A stretch of DNA of 64,000 nt from Paenibacillus lactis (GTDB lineage Bacteria; Bacillota; Bacilli; Paenibacillales; Paenibacillaceae): contig NZ_JAGGKI010000014.1 of assembly GCF_017873605.1 (NCBI RefSeq), positions 62,001 through 126,000 on the forward strand, written 5' to 3'. The position numbers were made by a program, and so were the translations under genes. Shown here in pieces: positions 22,251-53,484 of the stretch. The notes beneath the pieces were generated by a model that worked only from the letters and a program-made list of their open reading frames with translations, did not search any database and was not told the origin of the DNA. Position 1 is the stretch's first letter. Each line of letters starts with the position of its first letter.

Positions 22251-23081
22251 CTATCCCTTTGGCACTTCTTCCTTACAGGCCGAGACGATGCCGTACCGTT
22301 CCAGCGCCTTCGTGGATGACTCCAGCATCCGCCGCCGTAAATAGGCACCCTCCCGGATGCGCACCCGCCGGCCGAGAAAGCGGAGCTTGGATAGCAGATA
22401 CTCCTGCTCGTCACCGGGCACCAAGAGCCGGACACTGTAGGTATCCTGCCCTTCGTCATACGTTACTTCCTTATCGAAGCAGGAGAGAGCGTACAGAATT
22501 CGGGACAGCTCCCCGTTATACCGGGGGACGACGTCAATGACGGCTTCCGTCCGCCTTGCATCGAGCAGTTGCGGAATCCTCTCCAGGATGCGGTCCGCAT
22601 CGGATTCGGCGATCGGTTCCTCGGACACCGACAGGATGCTGTACAGCCGGGTGCGGAGCAGCGAGCGGTTCTTCCGGTGATACCAGAGCAGGTACCACTC
22701 CTGCTTGACCATGGAGAACTCCAGCTTATAAGGCAGCCCAGGCTGGTCCTTATGGGTACGCCCGCCCTTGATCGCGTAGGAGATGTTGATCGCGCGCTTG
22801 CGCATGATCGCTCGGCGCAATGGCCGCAGCAGCGGGTGGACGACCGGTTTGCCAGCGGCCTTCGCTTTTTCCAGCAGATGCTCCGGGGTTTCCATTCCCG
22901 CATCGGGTTCCAGGATCGCCCGCAGCTTCTCCAGCGTGGCAGGGGAGAAGGCATCCGCTGCAGCCGGATGGTCCAGCATCGTTTTCAGCCAGCTGCGCTC
23001 CTGCGAGGTCACCATGAACGTGCCCGAGTCCTCGAGACGGGATAGGATCTGGTAGTTAAAAATTTTTTCAAACGGATTCAT
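22251..23081 (-). CDS. WYL domain-containing protein
   Basis: A 276-residue regulator-like protein. A WYL/Sm-like domain occupies about residues 85-170 (RAINISYAIKGGRTHKDQ...KQEWYLLWYHRKNRSLLRTRL) and a WCX-type C-terminal extension follows (YSVRLLVPGDEQEYLLSKLRF). The N-terminal part is helical but not a clear winged helix. WYL domains sense ligands, often nucleotides or nucleic acids, and control stress and defence genes. It overlaps the upstream WYL regulator by 14 bases, so the pair is co-expressed and may act as a heteromer. Divergent from the RNA-repair genes. Confidence 0.85.
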   Translation of the reverse strand: MNPFEKIFNYQILSRLEDSGTFMVTSQERSWLKTMLDHPAAADAFSPATLEKLRAILEPDAGMETPEHLLEKAKAAGKPVVHPLLRPLRRAIMRKRAINISYAIKGGRTHKDQPGLPYKLEFSMVKQEWYLLWYHRKNRSLLRTRLYSILSVSEEPIAESDADRILERIPQLLDARRTEAVIDVVPRYNGELSRILYALSCFDKEVTYDEGQDTYSVRLLVPGDEQEYLLSKLRFLGRRVRIREGAYLRRRMLESSTKALERYGIVSACKEEVPKG

Positions 23082-24375
23082 AGGCAGCCTGGATCTCCTT
23101 CCATTCGTCGATCATTTCCTGGCGGAGCGTCAGCGGCTCCAGAATTTCGCAGGCAGAGCCGAAGCTCCGCAGCCAAGGCTTGATCTCGGTTGTGCCGTTC
23201 ACGGTAATTTCGTATATGAAGGAGACCTCGTCTTCTTCGATGATCTCTCCCCATTGTCCTTGCAGCAGTACGCGTTCCTTCACGAAGCTCGGCCCGGAGA
23301 CCCCGGGGTGGAAAAATCGGGCCCGAACCGTCACCGGACGGCCGGTATCGATCAGCCAGCTGTGCCGGATACGCTCCTCCAGCTCCTGCATTTTCGCCTC
23401 GAACCATGCCTCGTCAACCGCCGCGTCTTCCTCAATTTGAGTCATGCCCTCCATTCGATATTTGCGAATGCCTTCCCGGCCATTAGCGAGCAGATACCAT
23501 CTGCCGTACTGGTGGTCGTAGACGACCTTCAACGGAAGCACCTTTTCCCATCTGCCCTTGGATTCCCGCTCGAACAGCGGGTTTGTATTTTTAGACGCAT
23601 AGCTGAGCTCCGTTTTCGGCGAAAAGTACAGAAAGCGTACCTTGTGCCGATTACGGATGGCCTTAAGGAGGGTGAACAGATGCGCTTCGTCTAAGATGCG
23701 GGAATGATAGTGATACTTGTATAAAAAGGTTTCGGTAAACGGCATGGCTTCGCTTCGCTGAAGCTGCTTTTTAAGCCCGTCGCGGAGCAGGTATCCCGGC
23801 ACGGATGGCACCTGCGTATTTGCCATGATATCAACGAAGTCATAGAGGTCCAGGAGCTCCTCTTCGGACAGCTCATGGACCAGCTCGCCGCGGATCCGGT
23901 ACCGGTAAGGCCGGGGACCGGGCTCCCTGCAAATGACGCCGACCTCCTCGAGATATTTCAGATCGGAGCGGACGGTTTTTTCATCCGGGTAGGGAACGCC
24001 GTCCGGGGTTCCGCCGCAGCAGGCGTCCAGCAGCTCCGAGACCGTTAAGGTCTCATCACGCATGGCGCTGAGGAGCAAAGAAATCCGGAGTCCCTCGGAT
24101 TCCTTGACCGACTTGGCGCGGAACAGGAACAGCAGTACCGGATCGGCCGACTCATAGTAGCTGAACCGGAGGGCATCAGCCAGCTCGGCGCCCTGCTCCA
24201 TGGGCAGCTGCTGGTGCACGGTGCTGACGATGTCCTTCAGCTTCCGGATGGTTTTATCAAAGGTATGTACGGAAATGCCGAGCCGGTCGGCGAACTGCTG
24301 CCGGCTGTAGGCGCCGCTCGTCAGTGCAAGCATGCGCAGAAACTGGATCTCCTTGTCAAAGCTTTCCTTGGCCAT
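23068..24375 (-). CDS. WYL domain-containing transcriptional regulator
   Basis: A 435-residue regulator with an N-terminal helix-turn-helix (YSRQQFADRLGISVHTFDKTIRKL), a central region with a second wHTH-like segment (VRSDLKYLEEVGVICREPG), a WYL domain (KVRFLYFSPKTELS...VVYDHQYGRWYLLANGREGIRKYRM) and a WCX C-terminus. The ATG at 24375 follows GGAGGTTGACC. It is the first gene of the minus-strand pair and diverges from nucleotidyltransferase, repeat protein and rtcB across an 886-base gap full of repeats. It is the best candidate to control that operon; the inducing signal is unknown. Confidence 0.9.
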   Translation of the reverse strand: MAKESFDKEIQFLRMLALTSGAYSRQQFADRLGISVHTFDKTIRKLKDIVSTVHQQLPMEQGAELADALRFSYYESADPVLLFLFRAKSVKESEGLRISLLLSAMRDETLTVSELLDACCGGTPDGVPYPDEKTVRSDLKYLEEVGVICREPGPRPYRYRIRGELVHELSEEELLDLYDFVDIMANTQVPSVPGYLLRDGLKKQLQRSEAMPFTETFLYKYHYHSRILDEAHLFTLLKAIRNRHKVRFLYFSPKTELSYASKNTNPLFERESKGRWEKVLPLKVVYDHQYGRWYLLANGREGIRKYRMEGMTQIEEDAAVDEAWFEAKMQELEERIRHSWLIDTGRPVTVRARFFHPGVSGPSFVKERVLLQGQWGEIIEEDEVSFIYEITVNGTTEIKPWLRSFGSACEILEPLTLRQEMIDEWKEIQAAYESV

Positions 24376-24410
24376 GGTCAACCTCCGTTCGTTAAGCAGG
24401 CTATCTCTCT

Positions 24411-24439
24411 ATTGTATCAGGGGTTGAAAAGCGGTGAAA
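24411..24439 (-). promoter_or_regulatory. Candidate sigma-A promoter of the WYL pair
   Basis: Read on the minus strand: TTTCAC (24439-24434), a 17-base spacer and TACAAT (24416-24411), about 36 bases before the ATG. If correct, the 51-bp repeat array lies upstream of this promoter rather than in the mRNA leader. Confidence 0.45.
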
Positions 24440-24533
24440 CGGAAAACTTTAACCCGGATTTGCCGCTTCGTAATACTTTTGCCATGTTCAATACCCCCGG
24501 AATGCGCGAAGATAGAGGCAACAAAGATAACCG

Positions 24534-24920
24534 AGTCCCTAAAAAGGACTTGTGGAGCGTGAACGAGCCGGACAGTGGCGAGCAAGTCCCCAAAAGGGAC
24601 TTGTGGAGCGCAAACGAGCGCGCCAGGAGCAAACAAGTCCCGAAAAGGGACTTGCGGAGCGCGAACGAGCGCTGCCGGAGCAAACAAGTCCCAAAGAGGG
24701 ACTTGTGTAGCGCGAACGAGCCCGGCCGAGGCAAACAAGTCCCGTAAAGGGACTTGCGGAGCGCAAACGAGACGGGCAGTGGCGAGCAAGTCCCTAAAAA
24801 GGACTTGTGGAGCGTGAACGAGCCGGGCAGTGGCGAGCAAGTCCTCAAAAGGGACTTGTGGAGCGTGAACGAGCCGGGCAGTGGCGAGCAAGTCCCTAAA
24901 AGGGGCCTTCGGAGCGCGAG
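24534..24920. repeat. Eight-unit 51-bp tandem array of hairpin repeats
   Basis: AGTCC boxes begin at 24534, 24585, 24636, 24687, 24738, 24789, 24840 and 24891, exactly 51 bases apart. Each unit holds an inverted repeat CAAGTCCC-(5 nt, A-rich)-GGGACTTG, followed by a segment like GGAGCG..AACGAGC and a variable GC-rich spacer ending in GCGAG or GCAAA. The last unit is degenerate and the first lacks the leading CA. Because 51 is a multiple of three, frames stay open on both strands, but none has a ribosome site and one plus-strand frame is broken by TAA in unit 5. I read it as noncoding: DNA-binding sites or a multi-hairpin RNA. Confidence 0.9.
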
Positions 24921-25026
24921 CGAGCGCTGCCAGCGCACGAGTGAGTTGTACTACGTGAGTTAGCTCTCAAAAACCTGCTTCAACGGAGCAGGCGGAATCA
25001 GGTCGGAAAAGCGCTAGCGTTCTCCT

Positions 25027-25078
25027 TTGTCCTCTAATTTTAACAACTGTGAAGATCATTCCAAAAATTAGAGGACAA
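25027..25078. repeat. 15-bp perfect inverted repeat (long hairpin)
   Basis: TTGTCCTCTAATTTT (25027-25041) pairs with AAAATTAGAGGACAA (25064-25078) across a 22-base loop. No U-run follows, so it is not an ordinary terminator. It lies between the 51-bp array and the nucleotidyltransferase gene. Confidence 0.8.
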
Positions 25079-25093
25079 CAGAGATTGGAGACA

Positions 25094-25159
25094 TGATCCG
25101 CATGCGGAGTGCTGATAGGCGACGAACAAAGGATTGATCCGCATGCGGGGTGCTGACAG
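25094..25159. promoter_or_regulatory. Duplicated palindrome upstream of the RNA-repair operon
   Basis: A 25-base element, TGATCCGCATGCGG followed by (A/G)GTGCTGA(T/C)AG, occurs at 25094-25118 and again at 25135-25159, four helical turns apart. Each copy contains the palindrome CCGCATGCGG. The spacing and position about 100 bases before the first gene suit paired operator sites, perhaps for the WYL proteins. Confidence 0.6.
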
Positions 25160-25261
25160 ACACCAATTTTGGTTTTCGGCCCCACGTTTAGTGGACGATG
25201 ACGCTTCCGGCATCCGAAGTGATGCGACCGCACCAATAGACCCCCAAAGGAGGAATTCAAC

Positions 25262-26080
25262 ATGTCGCAGATCAAGCAAACGATCCTCGAAGAACTGAAG
25301 CGCATTGAACGGGAGGAGGGCGTCCGGATTCTATATGCGTGCGAGTCGGGCAGCCGGGCGTGGGGCTTTCCTTCCCGGGACAGCGATTATGACGTGCGTT
25401 TTCTATATATCCGGCCGGTTGAGTGGTACTTATCCATATTCGACAAGCGGGACGTGATTGAACGACCGATCAGCGATAGGCTGGACATCAACGGGTGGGA
25501 TTTGAAAAAAGCGCTCCGTCTCTTCCGCAAATCAAACCCGCCGCTGCTCGAATGGCTGCAGTCGCCAATCCGGTATTTGGAATGCTACTCGGCCGCTTCG
25601 CGAATCCGGGAGCACGCGTCGCAGATGTTTTCGCCTAGAGCGTGCATGCATCATTACTTGCATATGGCCAGAGGGAACTACCGGACCTACCTCCAAGGCG
25701 ATACCGTCAAGATCAAAAAATATTTCTACGTGCTTCGTCCGATCCTGGCTTGCGAGTGGATCGAGAAGCATGGCGCGATGCCGCCTATGGAGTTCCAGCG
25801 GTTGGCGGATGCATTGATTCCCGAAGGGAGCGGGCTGAAGACGGCCGTTCAGGAGCTGCTCGCCCGCAAAATCGCCGGGGATGAAATGAAAGATGAGCCT
25901 AAAATCGCCGTGATCAATGAATATATTGAGACCAAATTAGCCGAATACGAGCGGATCGCGAAGGACATGCGGACGGCCGAAAGGGACGAAGTCGGCATCG
26001 ATGCGAAGCTTGACGATCTGTTCCGGTCGGTAGTATATGAAGGATGGGAGAAGGATGAGTGCGATGGTCATTTTGTTTAA
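25262..26080 (+). CDS. nucleotidyltransferase domain protein (YcgL-like, DNA polymerase beta superfamily)
   Basis: A 272-residue predicted nucleotidyltransferase of the YcgL/COG3541 group. The active-site pattern GSRAWGFPSRDSDYDVRF (about residues 25-42) gives the GS helix and the DxD metal site, followed by the group's helical C-terminus (LLEWLQSPIRYL, KKYFYVLRPILACEWI). It would add nucleotides or nucleotidyl groups to an RNA end or another acceptor. A near-perfect AAAGGAGG precedes the ATG. It is the first gene of the operon leading to rtcB; comparative genomics has linked this type of enzyme with RtcB-based RNA repair. Substrate unproven. Confidence 0.88.
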   Translation: MSQIKQTILEELKRIEREEGVRILYACESGSRAWGFPSRDSDYDVRFLYIRPVEWYLSIFDKRDVIERPISDRLDINGWDLKKALRLFRKSNPPLLEWLQSPIRYLECYSAASRIREHASQMFSPRACMHHYLHMARGNYRTYLQGDTVKIKKYFYVLRPILACEWIEKHGAMPPMEFQRLADALIPEGSGLKTAVQELLARKIAGDEMKDEPKIAVINEYIETKLAEYERIAKDMRTAERDEVGIDAKLDDLFRSVVYEGWEKDECDGHFV

Positions 26081-27659
26081 TCAAGCGAAACGGATGCCTT
26101 GGGAGGGGAGGACCTCTATATACGATCATATTCGGCAGCAGGGCGGCACGGTGGACGGCTCCCTGCCGGATGATGAGGAATTCTGGGCGGGAAGCCGAAT
26201 GCGTTGGGTGGCCGGAGGATTGGATGGCGCGCTTGGGCACCATGCGGCACCAGCCGGCGCTTCGGAGGATGTCCGGGAGCTGATCCGCCTGCTGGTAAAG
26301 CTGACGAGAAAGCCTGGGGCGTTGAAGCGTAAGGCCGTATACGAACAGCTGATGAAGCTGGATATCGGCGGCAGCATCGATGCCGTGCTGGAGGAGATTC
26401 GGCAAGCTCCCGGCATCGAGCCGGAGCCGCTGTTTTACGAAGCTAAATGGTTTGCGGAATGCGGGGCACACCGCAATGTCGTCAAATTCGGCATGGCCGT
26501 GCTCGGGTTGTTCCGAAACGAAGCGGCGAAGGACCTGCTCCTGACGCTGGGAAGGCATGAAGAATTTACACTGTATGCCGCCGTAGCGATCACGAACGGG
26601 ATGGAAAACAGCAATGACGTGTTGTTTGAATTGGCCCAGACGGTCCATGGCTGGGGAAAAATCCATACAGTCGAACGGCTGCAGCCCGATACACCGGAAA
26701 TTCGGGCGTGGCTGCTTCGTTACGGCTGCCCAAACAGCATCATGGATGAATACCTGGCTTGCATTTGCGCACGGAACGGCGAGCTTCATGAAGCGCTCTC
26801 GGCAAGCCGCGTCGATGACGAGCTGTTTGAAGGCGCGACTGATATCATTCAGGCGCTGCTCCATGGCGGACCCGCCGAGGATATCGACGATTACGAGTTC
26901 GCCCCGCAGGTTGTAACGGACTACGTGCGGCTCGCGGAGGAGCAGGGGCGGACGGCGAAGCATCTGACGGTCATTCTGAAGCTCCGTGAATATCTGGACG
27001 CTTCGGATGAAGGCTGGGTGCAGCGGTTAACCGCGGGATGGACCGAGGAGCGGAGACAAGCCGCTGCCGGCACTTGCGAACGCATCCTATCGAAGCCGAT
27101 GTGGCAAGAAGTCGTCATGGGAGCGGTCAAGAGCGGAAGTCCCACGGAGCAATGGTACGGGGTGTCCGCTGCCCGCAGGCTGGGCGTTGATATCTGGCAG
27201 GAGCTATTTGCTCAGCTTACGGTGAACCCGCTGCTAGATTCGCACTATTTGGAGCTGATGAAATCCAACGATTCCATGCGAATCCGGGAGCTTGTCGACT
27301 TCGCCGGGCAGCGGCTGCCGCTCGCGGAGATTGCCTCGGGCCCGGGCGAGGAGATGGGGTTCGGCGAGGAATTTGCGGCACACCGGTGCCTTAGCAGCAT
27401 CCTTCAGAACCTGGACCGTCATGAAGGGATCGGCCTTGAGCTGATCGCAGCCGGCCTAAACAGCCCGGTGGTGAATAACCGGCATATGGCGCTTACCGCG
27501 CTGGAGGCATGGACGGTAGCTTCTTGGAAAGCACGGCTGTCCGAAGTGCTGGTTCAGGTGTTGGCGGTTGACCCGGATGAATCGGTCCGGGAACGCATTC
27601 GCTCCCTTTTGGAGGAGATTGGAATTTCAAACAAACAGGCAACGCAGGGAGAAGCATAA
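26055..27659 (+). CDS. hypothetical alpha-helical repeat (HEAT-like) protein
   Basis: About 534 residues, almost wholly helical, with repeated helix pairs such as ELIRLLVKLTRKPGALKRKA, DVLFELAQTVHGWGKIH and RHMALTALEAWTVASWKARL, suggesting a HEAT-like solenoid. The first 50 residues are compact and conserved-looking (NQAKRMPWEGRTSIYDHI). The start is uncertain: ATG 26037, 26055 and 26064 are all in frame; 26055 follows GGGAGAAGG. Whichever is used, it overlaps the nucleotidyltransferase gene, so translation is coupled. It has no catalytic motif I recognise. A scaffold or RNA-binding role beside the nucleotidyltransferase and ligase is inference. Confidence 0.75.
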   Translation: MSAMVILFNQAKRMPWEGRTSIYDHIRQQGGTVDGSLPDDEEFWAGSRMRWVAGGLDGALGHHAAPAGASEDVRELIRLLVKLTRKPGALKRKAVYEQLMKLDIGGSIDAVLEEIRQAPGIEPEPLFYEAKWFAECGAHRNVVKFGMAVLGLFRNEAAKDLLLTLGRHEEFTLYAAVAITNGMENSNDVLFELAQTVHGWGKIHTVERLQPDTPEIRAWLLRYGCPNSIMDEYLACICARNGELHEALSASRVDDELFEGATDIIQALLHGGPAEDIDDYEFAPQVVTDYVRLAEEQGRTAKHLTVILKLREYLDASDEGWVQRLTAGWTEERRQAAAGTCERILSKPMWQEVVMGAVKSGSPTEQWYGVSAARRLGVDIWQELFAQLTVNPLLDSHYLELMKSNDSMRIRELVDFAGQRLPLAEIASGPGEEMGFGEEFAAHRCLSSILQNLDRHEGIGLELIAAGLNSPVVNNRHMALTALEAWTVASWKARLSEVLVQVLAVDPDESVRERIRSLLEEIGISNKQATQGEA

Positions 27660-27856: not shown

Positions 27857-27974
27857 GACGGCCCCTAAAAAACGCTTAGAAAAATACGCTTAACGAGCAA
27901 TCATACGTGTAACCTTGGGGAGAAGCATTAGTACAGAAGGCTTTCATTTTTTAAGAAACTGGAGTGAACGGAAA

Positions 27975-29201
27975 ATGGGATATCAAAACATCGACGGTGT
28001 ACGGGTGTGGGGAAAGCCGGATGAAAGCGCGGTGGCCCAAGCGCGCAGATGCGCCGAAACCGGCAATGTCATCCGGACCTTGCTCATGGCCGACCATCAT
28101 AAAGGGTACAGTCAGCCGATCGGAGGCGTCGTTGTATACGACGGCCAGATCTCACCCTCCGGCGTAGGCTACGATATTGCCTGCGGGAACAAGGCGGTAC
28201 GGACGAACCTGCATGCGAAGGACATCAAGCCAGTGCTGGGACGCATAATGGACGACATCGCGCGCAGCATTTCCTTCGGGATCGGGCGCGTCAACAACAC
28301 ACGGGTCGATCATGAGCTGTTTGATGATCCGGACTGGGACGTGTACCGCTCGATCGGGAAGAAGGAGCACGACAAGCTGCTGGCGCTGGCCCGGAGCCAG
28401 CTTGGCACGGTCGGCAGCGGCAACCATTTCGTCGATCTGTTTGAGGAGCAGGAGACGGGACGGCTGTGGGTCGCCAATCACTTCGGCAGCCGGGGCTTTG
28501 GACATAAAACGGCGAGCGGCTTCCTCAATCTGAGTGCCGGACGCGATTTTCTGGCAAATGCCCCGGGGGAATCGATGGACCAACCGCCGGTGCTGTTCGA
28601 CCTGGACAGCGAGCTTGGCGATATGTATTATCGGGCGATGAAGCTTGTGGGCCGTTACGCCTATGCCGGACGGGATTACGTCATCGGGCAGGTGCTGTCG
28701 ATGCTCGGGGCCGAAGCCGACTTCGAGGTGCATAATCATCACAATTATGCTTGGAAGGAGACGCATGACGGGAGAGAAGCCATTGTCGTGCGGAAGGGAG
28801 CCACGCCGTCGGCACCGGGGCAGACCGGGTTTATCGGCGGCAGCATGGGTGATATATCCGTGATCGTTCGGGGCAAGGATTCGGAGGAAAACCGGGACGC
28901 TTGCTACAGCACCGTACATGGGGCAGGACGCATCATGAGCCGGACGCAGGCGGCCGGCCGAATGAACTGGAAGACCCGGACCCGCAGCGGCGGACAAATC
29001 TCGACAGCACAGATGCTGTCGGCAGTTAAGGAATTTGGCGTGGAGCTGCGCGGCGCCGGTACGGACGAAAGCCCGTTTGTGTACCGCAAGCTCCAGGACG
29101 TTCTGGATGCGCACGCCGGGACGATTGAGGTACTGCATGTGCTGAAGCCGATCGGCGTCTGCATGGCGGGTGCAGATGAATTCGATCCGTACAAGGATTA
29201 A
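27975..29201 (+). CDS. rtcB: RNA-splicing ligase RtcB
   Basis: A 408-residue GTP- and Mn-dependent ligase joining 2',3'-cyclic phosphate or 3'-phosphate RNA ends to 5'-OH ends. Recognisable blocks are ADHHKGYSQPIGGV, SGVGYDIACGN (metal-binding Asp and Cys), GTVGSGNHFVDL (metal His), ANHFGSRGFGH, and the guanylylation-site region YSTVHGAGRIMSR. The ATG at 27975 gives exactly the length known for E. coli RtcB; an in-frame TTG at 27915 would add 20 unlikely residues. GGAG lies ten bases upstream. It follows the nucleotidyltransferase and helical repeat genes on the same strand. No rtcA or archease gene is in the window. Confidence 0.95.
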   Translation: MGYQNIDGVRVWGKPDESAVAQARRCAETGNVIRTLLMADHHKGYSQPIGGVVVYDGQISPSGVGYDIACGNKAVRTNLHAKDIKPVLGRIMDDIARSISFGIGRVNNTRVDHELFDDPDWDVYRSIGKKEHDKLLALARSQLGTVGSGNHFVDLFEEQETGRLWVANHFGSRGFGHKTASGFLNLSAGRDFLANAPGESMDQPPVLFDLDSELGDMYYRAMKLVGRYAYAGRDYVIGQVLSMLGAEADFEVHNHHNYAWKETHDGREAIVVRKGATPSAPGQTGFIGGSMGDISVIVRGKDSEENRDACYSTVHGAGRIMSRTQAAGRMNWKTRTRSGGQISTAQMLSAVKEFGVELRGAGTDESPFVYRKLQDVLDAHAGTIEVLHVLKPIGVCMAGADEFDPYKD

Positions 29202-53110: not shown

Positions 53111-53336
53111 AGCTAATATCCCCCTTATCATTCAAAAATCTCAAGTTCGCTGGCAAAGAAATTACGGGATCGGGGGTTTGCACTTCGTTAGTCTTGCGAA
53201 TGAAAGCATGAACGGTCACCTTTTTTTCTGGAATAAGGGGGTTAGGGGGTTATATCTACCGAGTATTGCAGCAAACACGGAAACGTTTGACACCACCGCC
53301 AAACCTATGTACAGTAATAGTCAATAGAATAGGAAG

Positions 53337-53425
53337 TCCACTAGGGGAGCCGTCAGCGGCTGAGACAAGAGCGTATCTTGGACCCTTTGAACCTGATCTA
53401 GTTCGTACTAGCGTAGGAAAGTGGA
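53337..53425 (+). promoter_or_regulatory. TPP riboswitch (THI box)
   Basis: All conserved blocks are present: closing stem TCCAC/GTGGA, AGGGGAGCC, GGCTGAGACA, GACCCTTTGAACCTGATCTAG, and GCGTAGGAAAG. It binds thiamine pyrophosphate and shuts off the downstream tenA-thiM-thiD-thiE operon, probably through the terminator at 53485. Confidence 0.95.
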
Positions 53426-53484
53426 GCCTTCACGGATAGAGTCCTTTTTGCGCCTGCTTCTTCCGGGCAAGAGGACTATTGCTG

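Follow-up and report, generated by a model that had tools for sequence, protein, structure and literature searches.

The array and its gene context

The window analysed here is the whole 64,000-nt stretch of Paenibacillus lactis DNA, and positions given without a locus name refer to it. It carries an eight-unit array with a 51-bp period (Table 1) in the gap that separates a divergent WYL gene from rlaP. Each unit consists of a 21-bp palindrome, CAAGTCCC-n5-GGGACTTG, and a 30-bp spacer, and the palindromes start at 24532, 24583, 24634, 24685, 24736, 24787, 24838 and 24889. The original prediction, made from the letters of the window, described eight units with a period of exactly 51 bp. This description was borne out both by TRF (24534-24925, period 51, 7.7 copies, 83% matches, 0 indels) and by a stem scan, which found eight hairpins from 24532 with all seven spacings equal to 51. 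The stem that the prediction assigned to every unit, CAAGTCCC/GGGACTTG, is complete in units 2-5, and at least one stem change is present in each of units 1, 6, 7 and 8. Likewise, the segment GGAGCG..AACGAGC that it considered conserved is found in the window array and its close kin (L009 and L031); other arrays carry other spacers.

Open frames of 160, 173 and 177 aa cross the array. Pattern searches returned three promoter-like patterns (0.2 expected) and one terminator-like pattern (2.0 expected), none of which is decisive. The named relatives listed for rlaP are mostly from Paenibacillus, with identities of 72% or less. Between rlaP and the rtcB-family gene, a 540-aa protein is encoded at 26037-27659 (+); it has no Pfam match at E 0.001. 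No Rfam match was obtained up to E 1 for positions 23900-25700. At the gathering score, a TPP riboswitch was the only Rfam match in seven sources; it is located at 53333-53436 (+) of the window and scores 77.3 bits.

Table 1. Features around the 51-bp array, with positions in the window
Feature	Positions	Strand	Remarks
Second WYL-domain gene	22251..23081	-	
WYL/WCX regulator gene	23068..24381	-	divergent from the array
Eight-unit 51-bp array	24532..24925	+	strand with the A-rich loop
136-nt element (model R1)	24977..25112	+	one long imperfect hairpin, outside the array; strong covariation
Two copies of GATCCGCATGCGG-GTGCTGA	25095..25176	+	41-bp spacing; the 136-nt element has the first copy as its 3' end
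rlaP	25262..26080	+	PF10127, 335 bits
rtcB-family gene	27915..29201	+	PF01139, 227 bits

A dispersed family of intergenic arrays

We refer to the genome that carries the window as the own genome; G005, G018 and G094 are relatives from the same genus, and L numbers denote examined loci. Used as a query, the array has 52 matches in the own genome, in which palindrome arrays were found at 36 examined places (the window, L009-L042 and L208). Several of these places look like half-arrays at contig ends. Nine pairs of halves were matched by their spacers, five of them sharing a G005 partner, and at least 27 arrays are counted in the own genome once such halves are paired.

With at most one mismatch, AAGTCCNNAAAAGGGACTT matches the own genome 213 times and its reversed control not once. 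This sequence occurs in 13 of 100 same-genus genomes, with 46 matches in G005, 11 in G094, 3 in G018 and one in each of nine more besides those of the own genome. The reversed control gives one match apiece in eight of the 100 genomes, and the single matches are therefore taken as background. The palindrome family is present in 4/100 same-genus genomes, that is, the own genome and 3 of the 99 others. The exact symmetric palindrome was found in 22 of 392 genomes of the order (104 sites in the own genome, 16 in G005, 12 in G094, 3 in one genome and 1 in each of the rest), and its control over the same 392 genomes reached at most 3, in one genome. No hairpin lies within a predicted, script-called gene in any of three sets (0/59, 0/113 and 0/51).

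The arrays keep their places. Through their flanks, 18 of 21 examined G005 array stretches align with array loci of the own genome; for L185, L189 and L196 no such alignment was found. Copy number at shared loci differs widely. At the rlaP locus the own genome has eight units and G005 has two, one of them degenerate, which supports in part the original suggestion of a locally expanded repeat. L011 has 16 units versus 1 in L195, and L009 has 7, plus 2 in its other half L031, versus 17 in L182. We found rlaP in 55 of 61 genomes and examined 30 of its loci, the own and G005 loci among them. Of the 28 others, all from the same genus, 27 lack any hairpin-like match beside rlaP, and the remaining locus has just one, which stands by itself. 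The flank alignments, the copy-number differences and these other rlaP loci together indicate that the arrays are fixed in place, vary in length and have no tie to RNA repair.

The original prediction had suggested that the array may serve RNA repair or the WYL proteins, and had proposed to look for the unit genome-wide and beside rtcB in related species. Neither the genome-wide search nor the rlaP loci of relatives favoured this. The scattering of the unit over many unrelated loci is in fact part of the outcome that the prediction itself named as contradicting it. On the grounds of dispersal and the other rlaP loci, a specificity for RNA repair or WYL was rejected; the window array has no special tie to either, and our results give no sign that it regulates rlaP or the WYL genes.

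A replication-strand bias, apparent in a first count, was gone in the fuller census of 22 G005 loci, which has 9 minus and 5 plus loci in 0-3.3 Mb and 5 plus and 3 minus loci beyond. The distribution of the 22 array loci along G005:C1 is broken by two gaps of more than 1 Mb, at 2.39-3.71 Mb and from 5.98 Mb round to 0.57 Mb.

Shared palindrome and private spacers

Spacers of the own genome have an identity of 0.84 within arrays and 0.39 between arrays. We compared 284 spacers from 60 array pieces of four species (35 own, 14 G005, 8 G018 and 3 G094), taking spacings of 48-55 bp only, and 257 of them are exactly 30 nt long. The remaining 27 are 28, 29, 31, 32 or 34 nt long, and in no case (0/27) is the difference from 30 divisible by 3. 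Since the length variants never preserve the reading frame, coding is unlikely, and a coding tandem repeat of 17 aa was rejected.

The units of G018 have the same stem and period as those of the own genome. Their loops are mostly TGAGA-like, versus mostly nAAAA in the own genome, and such a species-specific loop on a kept stem hints at a genome-wide concerted change of the loop. A C6A stem mismatch is present in all counted units of L026 and of its G005 partner L192, and some arrays are mismatched throughout. A search of the array flanks for conserved modules brought out IS ends and the 136-nt element and nothing else. The palindrome ends in CAAG/CTTG. A GTAG or CGTC tag beside it is not conserved in 38 aligned units, and GTAG is present near the next bases after the palindrome in some arrays.

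The palindrome loop is the landing site of an IS3-family element, whose OrfA matches HTH_Tnp_1 with 42.3 bits. In the own genome, 12 right ends were detected (at most 3 mismatches), and every one of them abuts a half palindrome of this family at the A-rich loop; the left end is also in the loop in at least six examined pieces. No right ends were found in G005, G018 or G094. The element lies at contig ends of the own genome in L012, L016, L022, L024, L029, L030, L031, L033, L038, L040 and L042, and inside L036. It explains many contig breaks of the own assembly; because the draft breaks inside it, further copies may be hidden.

Helical phase and predicted curvature

When 36 non-redundant units are combined, the strongest harmonic in the A/T profile of the 51-bp unit is the one at 51/5 = 10.2 bp; it holds 29.5% of the power and also ranks first in own and G018 units separately. 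The 10.2-bp power of single spacers is 19.3, compared with 7.2 after shuffling; the arrays that gave rise to the idea of phasing are also those that served to test it. A unit of 51 bp corresponds to five helical turns, and the spacers hold A/T-rich patches every ~10 bp. Because the 51-base repeats thus hold A/T-rich patches on one face of the helix, the arrays are predicted to bend DNA. Agreement between arrays exceeds chance by 0.20 for the A/T-versus-G/C class (bootstrap 0.17-0.25), by 0.12 for purine/pyrimidine and by 0.06 for amino/keto. Within arrays, 56% of the changes are transitions, which alter the A/T-versus-G/C class yet keep the purine/pyrimidine class.

Curvature was predicted with a wedge model. 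When the spacers were shuffled and the palindrome kept, 33 of the 36 units lay above the control median, 17 of them at p<=0.05 (above the median: own 21/22, G018 6/8, G005 3/3, G094 3/3). With whole-unit shuffles, 32 of 36 were above it, 7 at p<=0.05; all 22 own units were among those above, and G018 was less clear, with one unit at p 0.995. Predicted curvature peaks at unit lengths of 51-54 and is low at 47-49. In the window, 12 of the 17 102-bp stretches that start in 24532-24810 exceed the window's 95th percentile of predicted curvature. Other own array pieces of at least five units also rank high, 20/22 above the window's 90th percentile and 22/22 above its 75th. Eight other tandem arrays fall at curvature percentiles of 0.17-0.70. 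Three of them are palindrome arrays that belong to another family, with periods of 38, 39 and 49, and provided unphased controls; the other five are tandem repeats of the window.

Spacer identity is 0.36 in register and 0.23-0.30 when shifted. This in-register similarity shows that the spacers share ancestry, and the helical phase may therefore be inherited. Upon cutting spacer identity to 0.5, 18 of 19 arrays remained above the control median, and upon cutting it to 0.4, 10 of 10 did so; at an identity of 0.34 or less, three arrays were left and the 10.2-bp signal was not significant (p 0.098).

The bias toward convergent gene pairs that is expected of a supercoil sink is weak. Convergent pairs make up 7/22 at the G005 arrays versus 16/127 (p 0.048), 4/15 at the own arrays versus 7/65 (p 0.20), and 0/13 at the G018 and G094 arrays together versus 7/59.

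Two possible accounts: curved docking sites or an inherited phase

Extragenic palindromes are common, and the reason for their persistence is disputed. Here one family provides many arrays in parallel: between their palindromes the sequence has diverged, yet unit length and helical phase have for the most part been kept. Shape is therefore separable from sequence, and selection for DNA architecture becomes testable in one genome, with the unphased palindrome arrays of these genomes as controls. In our best reading, to which we give a probability of about 0.45, the array belongs to a dispersed family of intergenic palindrome arrays that are REP/BIME-like sites with A/T patches in helical phase, predicted to be curved, and likely to be places where a DNA-wrapping protein, perhaps gyrase, docks. 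The arrays would offer curved, wrap-ready DNA to this protein. Slippage or unequal recombination would lengthen and shorten them, and selection would act on their phase instead of their sequence.

The choice of gyrase as the putative binder follows an analogy with E. coli BIME-2 and the E. coli gyrase motif. In the passages of PMC6379681 that describe it, this motif has two flanks in which GC content oscillates with the helix, and gyrase cleavage sites are over-represented in BIME-2, which makes gyrase a well-documented candidate. The helix-phased A/T patches resemble these flanks, and the arrays have the helically periodic composition of a gyrase-binding BIME-2-like site, as judged by the 10.2-bp harmonic and the predicted curvature. 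The E. coli motif places a central cleavage region between its two periodic flanks, whereas here the periodicity spans every unit. DNA-bridging nucleoid proteins are an alternative candidate, because genomes that have them tend toward stronger A-tract periodicity, as stated in the relevant part of PMC3940949.

The main rival, which keeps an appreciable chance of being correct, is a selfish or neutral minisatellite with an inherited phase. According to it, a REP-like palindrome spread long ago together with ~30 bp beside it, slippage lengthens and shortens the arrays, the phase is an ancestral relic and no protein binds. The big differences in copy number at shared loci (8 versus 2 at rlaP, 16 versus 1 in L011/L195, 7+2 versus 17 in L009/L182) are consistent with such a history, as are the residual in-register similarity of the spacers and the restriction of the palindrome family to 4 of 100 same-genus genomes. 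However, unit length and A/T phase are better preserved than sequence, and neither a fixed period nor predicted curvature is seen in other palindrome arrays of these genomes. These two observations count against the rival. A bolder form of the docking-site reading, which we consider rather unlikely, sees every array as a platform for DNA wrapping that is put together from five-turn modules. In each module the palindrome would be the fixed point of docking or nucleation, and the spacer would be free to drift as long as its A/T patches hold one helical face. Such a shape code would be kept at dozens of loci by selection on phase, and the IS that lands in the loop would exploit it.

Among known systems, the REP elements and BIME-2 of E. 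coli and its relatives come closest. Like them, the family is a short, high-copy intergenic palindrome in regularly spaced groups. REP elements are extragenic, high-copy and 20-40 bp long, and the palindrome here has 21 bp and 213 matches, with no hairpin inside genes. Both are also targets of IS3-family elements; IS1397 and ISKpn1 of this family insert into REP sequences, as described in the part of PMC1525189 that concerns them. Several features differ. REP sequences fall into GTAG/CGTC superfamilies, according to the account of them in PMC3733652, whereas no such end tag is conserved in the present palindrome. BIMEs alternate the orientation of REP, and the units here stand head to tail in a single orientation. 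Furthermore, the spacer here is private to each locus and the unit length is fixed near five helical turns. Mobilisation by a RAYT was rejected, as the sole Y1_Tnp match in the own genome fits the IS200 model (149 bits, cut-off 55) and scores 42 bits with the RAYT model (cut-off 80); in the 11-kb stretch around it (L217), no family hairpin was reported.

The BOX elements of pneumococcus and the MIRU units of mycobacteria are intergenic arrays with a central module that varies in copy number. Unlike them, the present arrays have no conserved flanking modules apart from those named above. As in a CRISPR, a constant palindromic piece alternates with ~30-bp spacers. In contrast to the unique spacers of a CRISPR, those of our arrays are alike inside an array (0.84) and different between arrays. 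Open-licence full-text literature yielded no description of this family or its kind, bcr repeats included, and we do not claim novelty.

Possible RNA structure at the array and in its neighbour

The original prediction also offered a multi-hairpin RNA: transcripts of the array would fold into hairpins that work as a decoy, an RtcB substrate or a signal. Four units do fold far better than their shuffles (z -6.74), yet this is expected of any tandem palindromes. The stem covariance test that the prediction called for came out against it. The eight pairs of the palindrome show one double change over 38 units, the same as in shuffles, and 145 distinct hairpins have 155 mismatched and 57 G-U-type cells versus four double changes. 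Since the palindrome shows no covariation, an RNA function for it is unlikely. A helix within the spacer, which joins columns 23-27 to 36-40, shows double changes in 34 cells compared with 22.9 after shuffling (0/500), but it was a post hoc choice that did not come first in its scan, and it pairs in 49.5% of cells. For G018 alone (n=8), four arm-swap tests gave p 0.049, 0.002, 0.446 and 0.037, whereas 15 such tests over 36 arrays gave p values from 0.042 to 0.993. The folding energies of the spacers are ordinary (mean z -0.16 over 35 own array pieces), and there is no Rfam match at the array. This second hairpin in the spacer looked good by eye but received no support from z-scores and arm swaps over all arrays; we keep it as a possible helix and count the palindrome as negative. 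Together with the scattered loci and the 27 rlaP loci without a hairpin, these results leave an RtcB-linked RNA unsupported, and we regard any multi-hairpin RNA as improbable. A series of sites through which a specific regulator, be it WYL or another, would control the divergent WYL and rlaP promoters is very improbable and unsupported as WYL-specific: the conserved palindrome does adjoin a divergent regulator gene, but dozens of unrelated intergenic places carry it too, nearly all of the other rlaP loci examined are without it, and its stem does not covary.

With the supposed link to RNA repair undone, attention moves to the strongly covarying 136-nt element, which begins 52 nt past the TRF end of the array. 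This element and the helical phasing are the points that the original prediction missed. We aligned eleven copies (window, L009, L011, L027, L037, L182, two in L183, L187, L195 and L200). Double changes are present in 18 of the 37 pairs and 96.8% of cells are paired, and none of 500 shuffles was as good on these measures. The pairing drops to 26-46% when the alignment is slid; the number of further pair types is not raised (473/500 shuffles). The R1 model matches all 100 same-genus genomes, with at least 33 copies in the own genome, G005 and many others. Its 65 matches in 31 sources include 34 full-length ones at 121 bits or more, which keep 1238 of 1258 cells paired in an alignment fitted to the R1 model. 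None of 29 copies overlaps a script-called gene. A search of Rfam with the element gave no match at the window and, over seven other loci, one match far below the cut-off.

Unlike the array, the 136-nt element has the look of a structured RNA or of a long, imperfect ERIC- or bcr-type palindrome, and is possibly an abundant, genus-wide structured RNA or an ERIC-like repeat. Some copies stand in clusters, at distances of a few hundred nt. The element's 3' end (CCGCATGCGG) is tandemly repeated with periods that are specific to the locus (41, 38, 49 and 39 bp), at 25095-25176 of the window, 3570-4000 of L009, 4900-5170 of L011, and in L187 of G005. These repeats combine a shared palindrome with a private spacer, as the 51-bp arrays do, but have no fixed period and no predicted curvature. 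The GATCCGCATGCGG-GTGCTGA piece forms the 38-, 39- and 49-bp arrays found elsewhere, which are the unphased controls.
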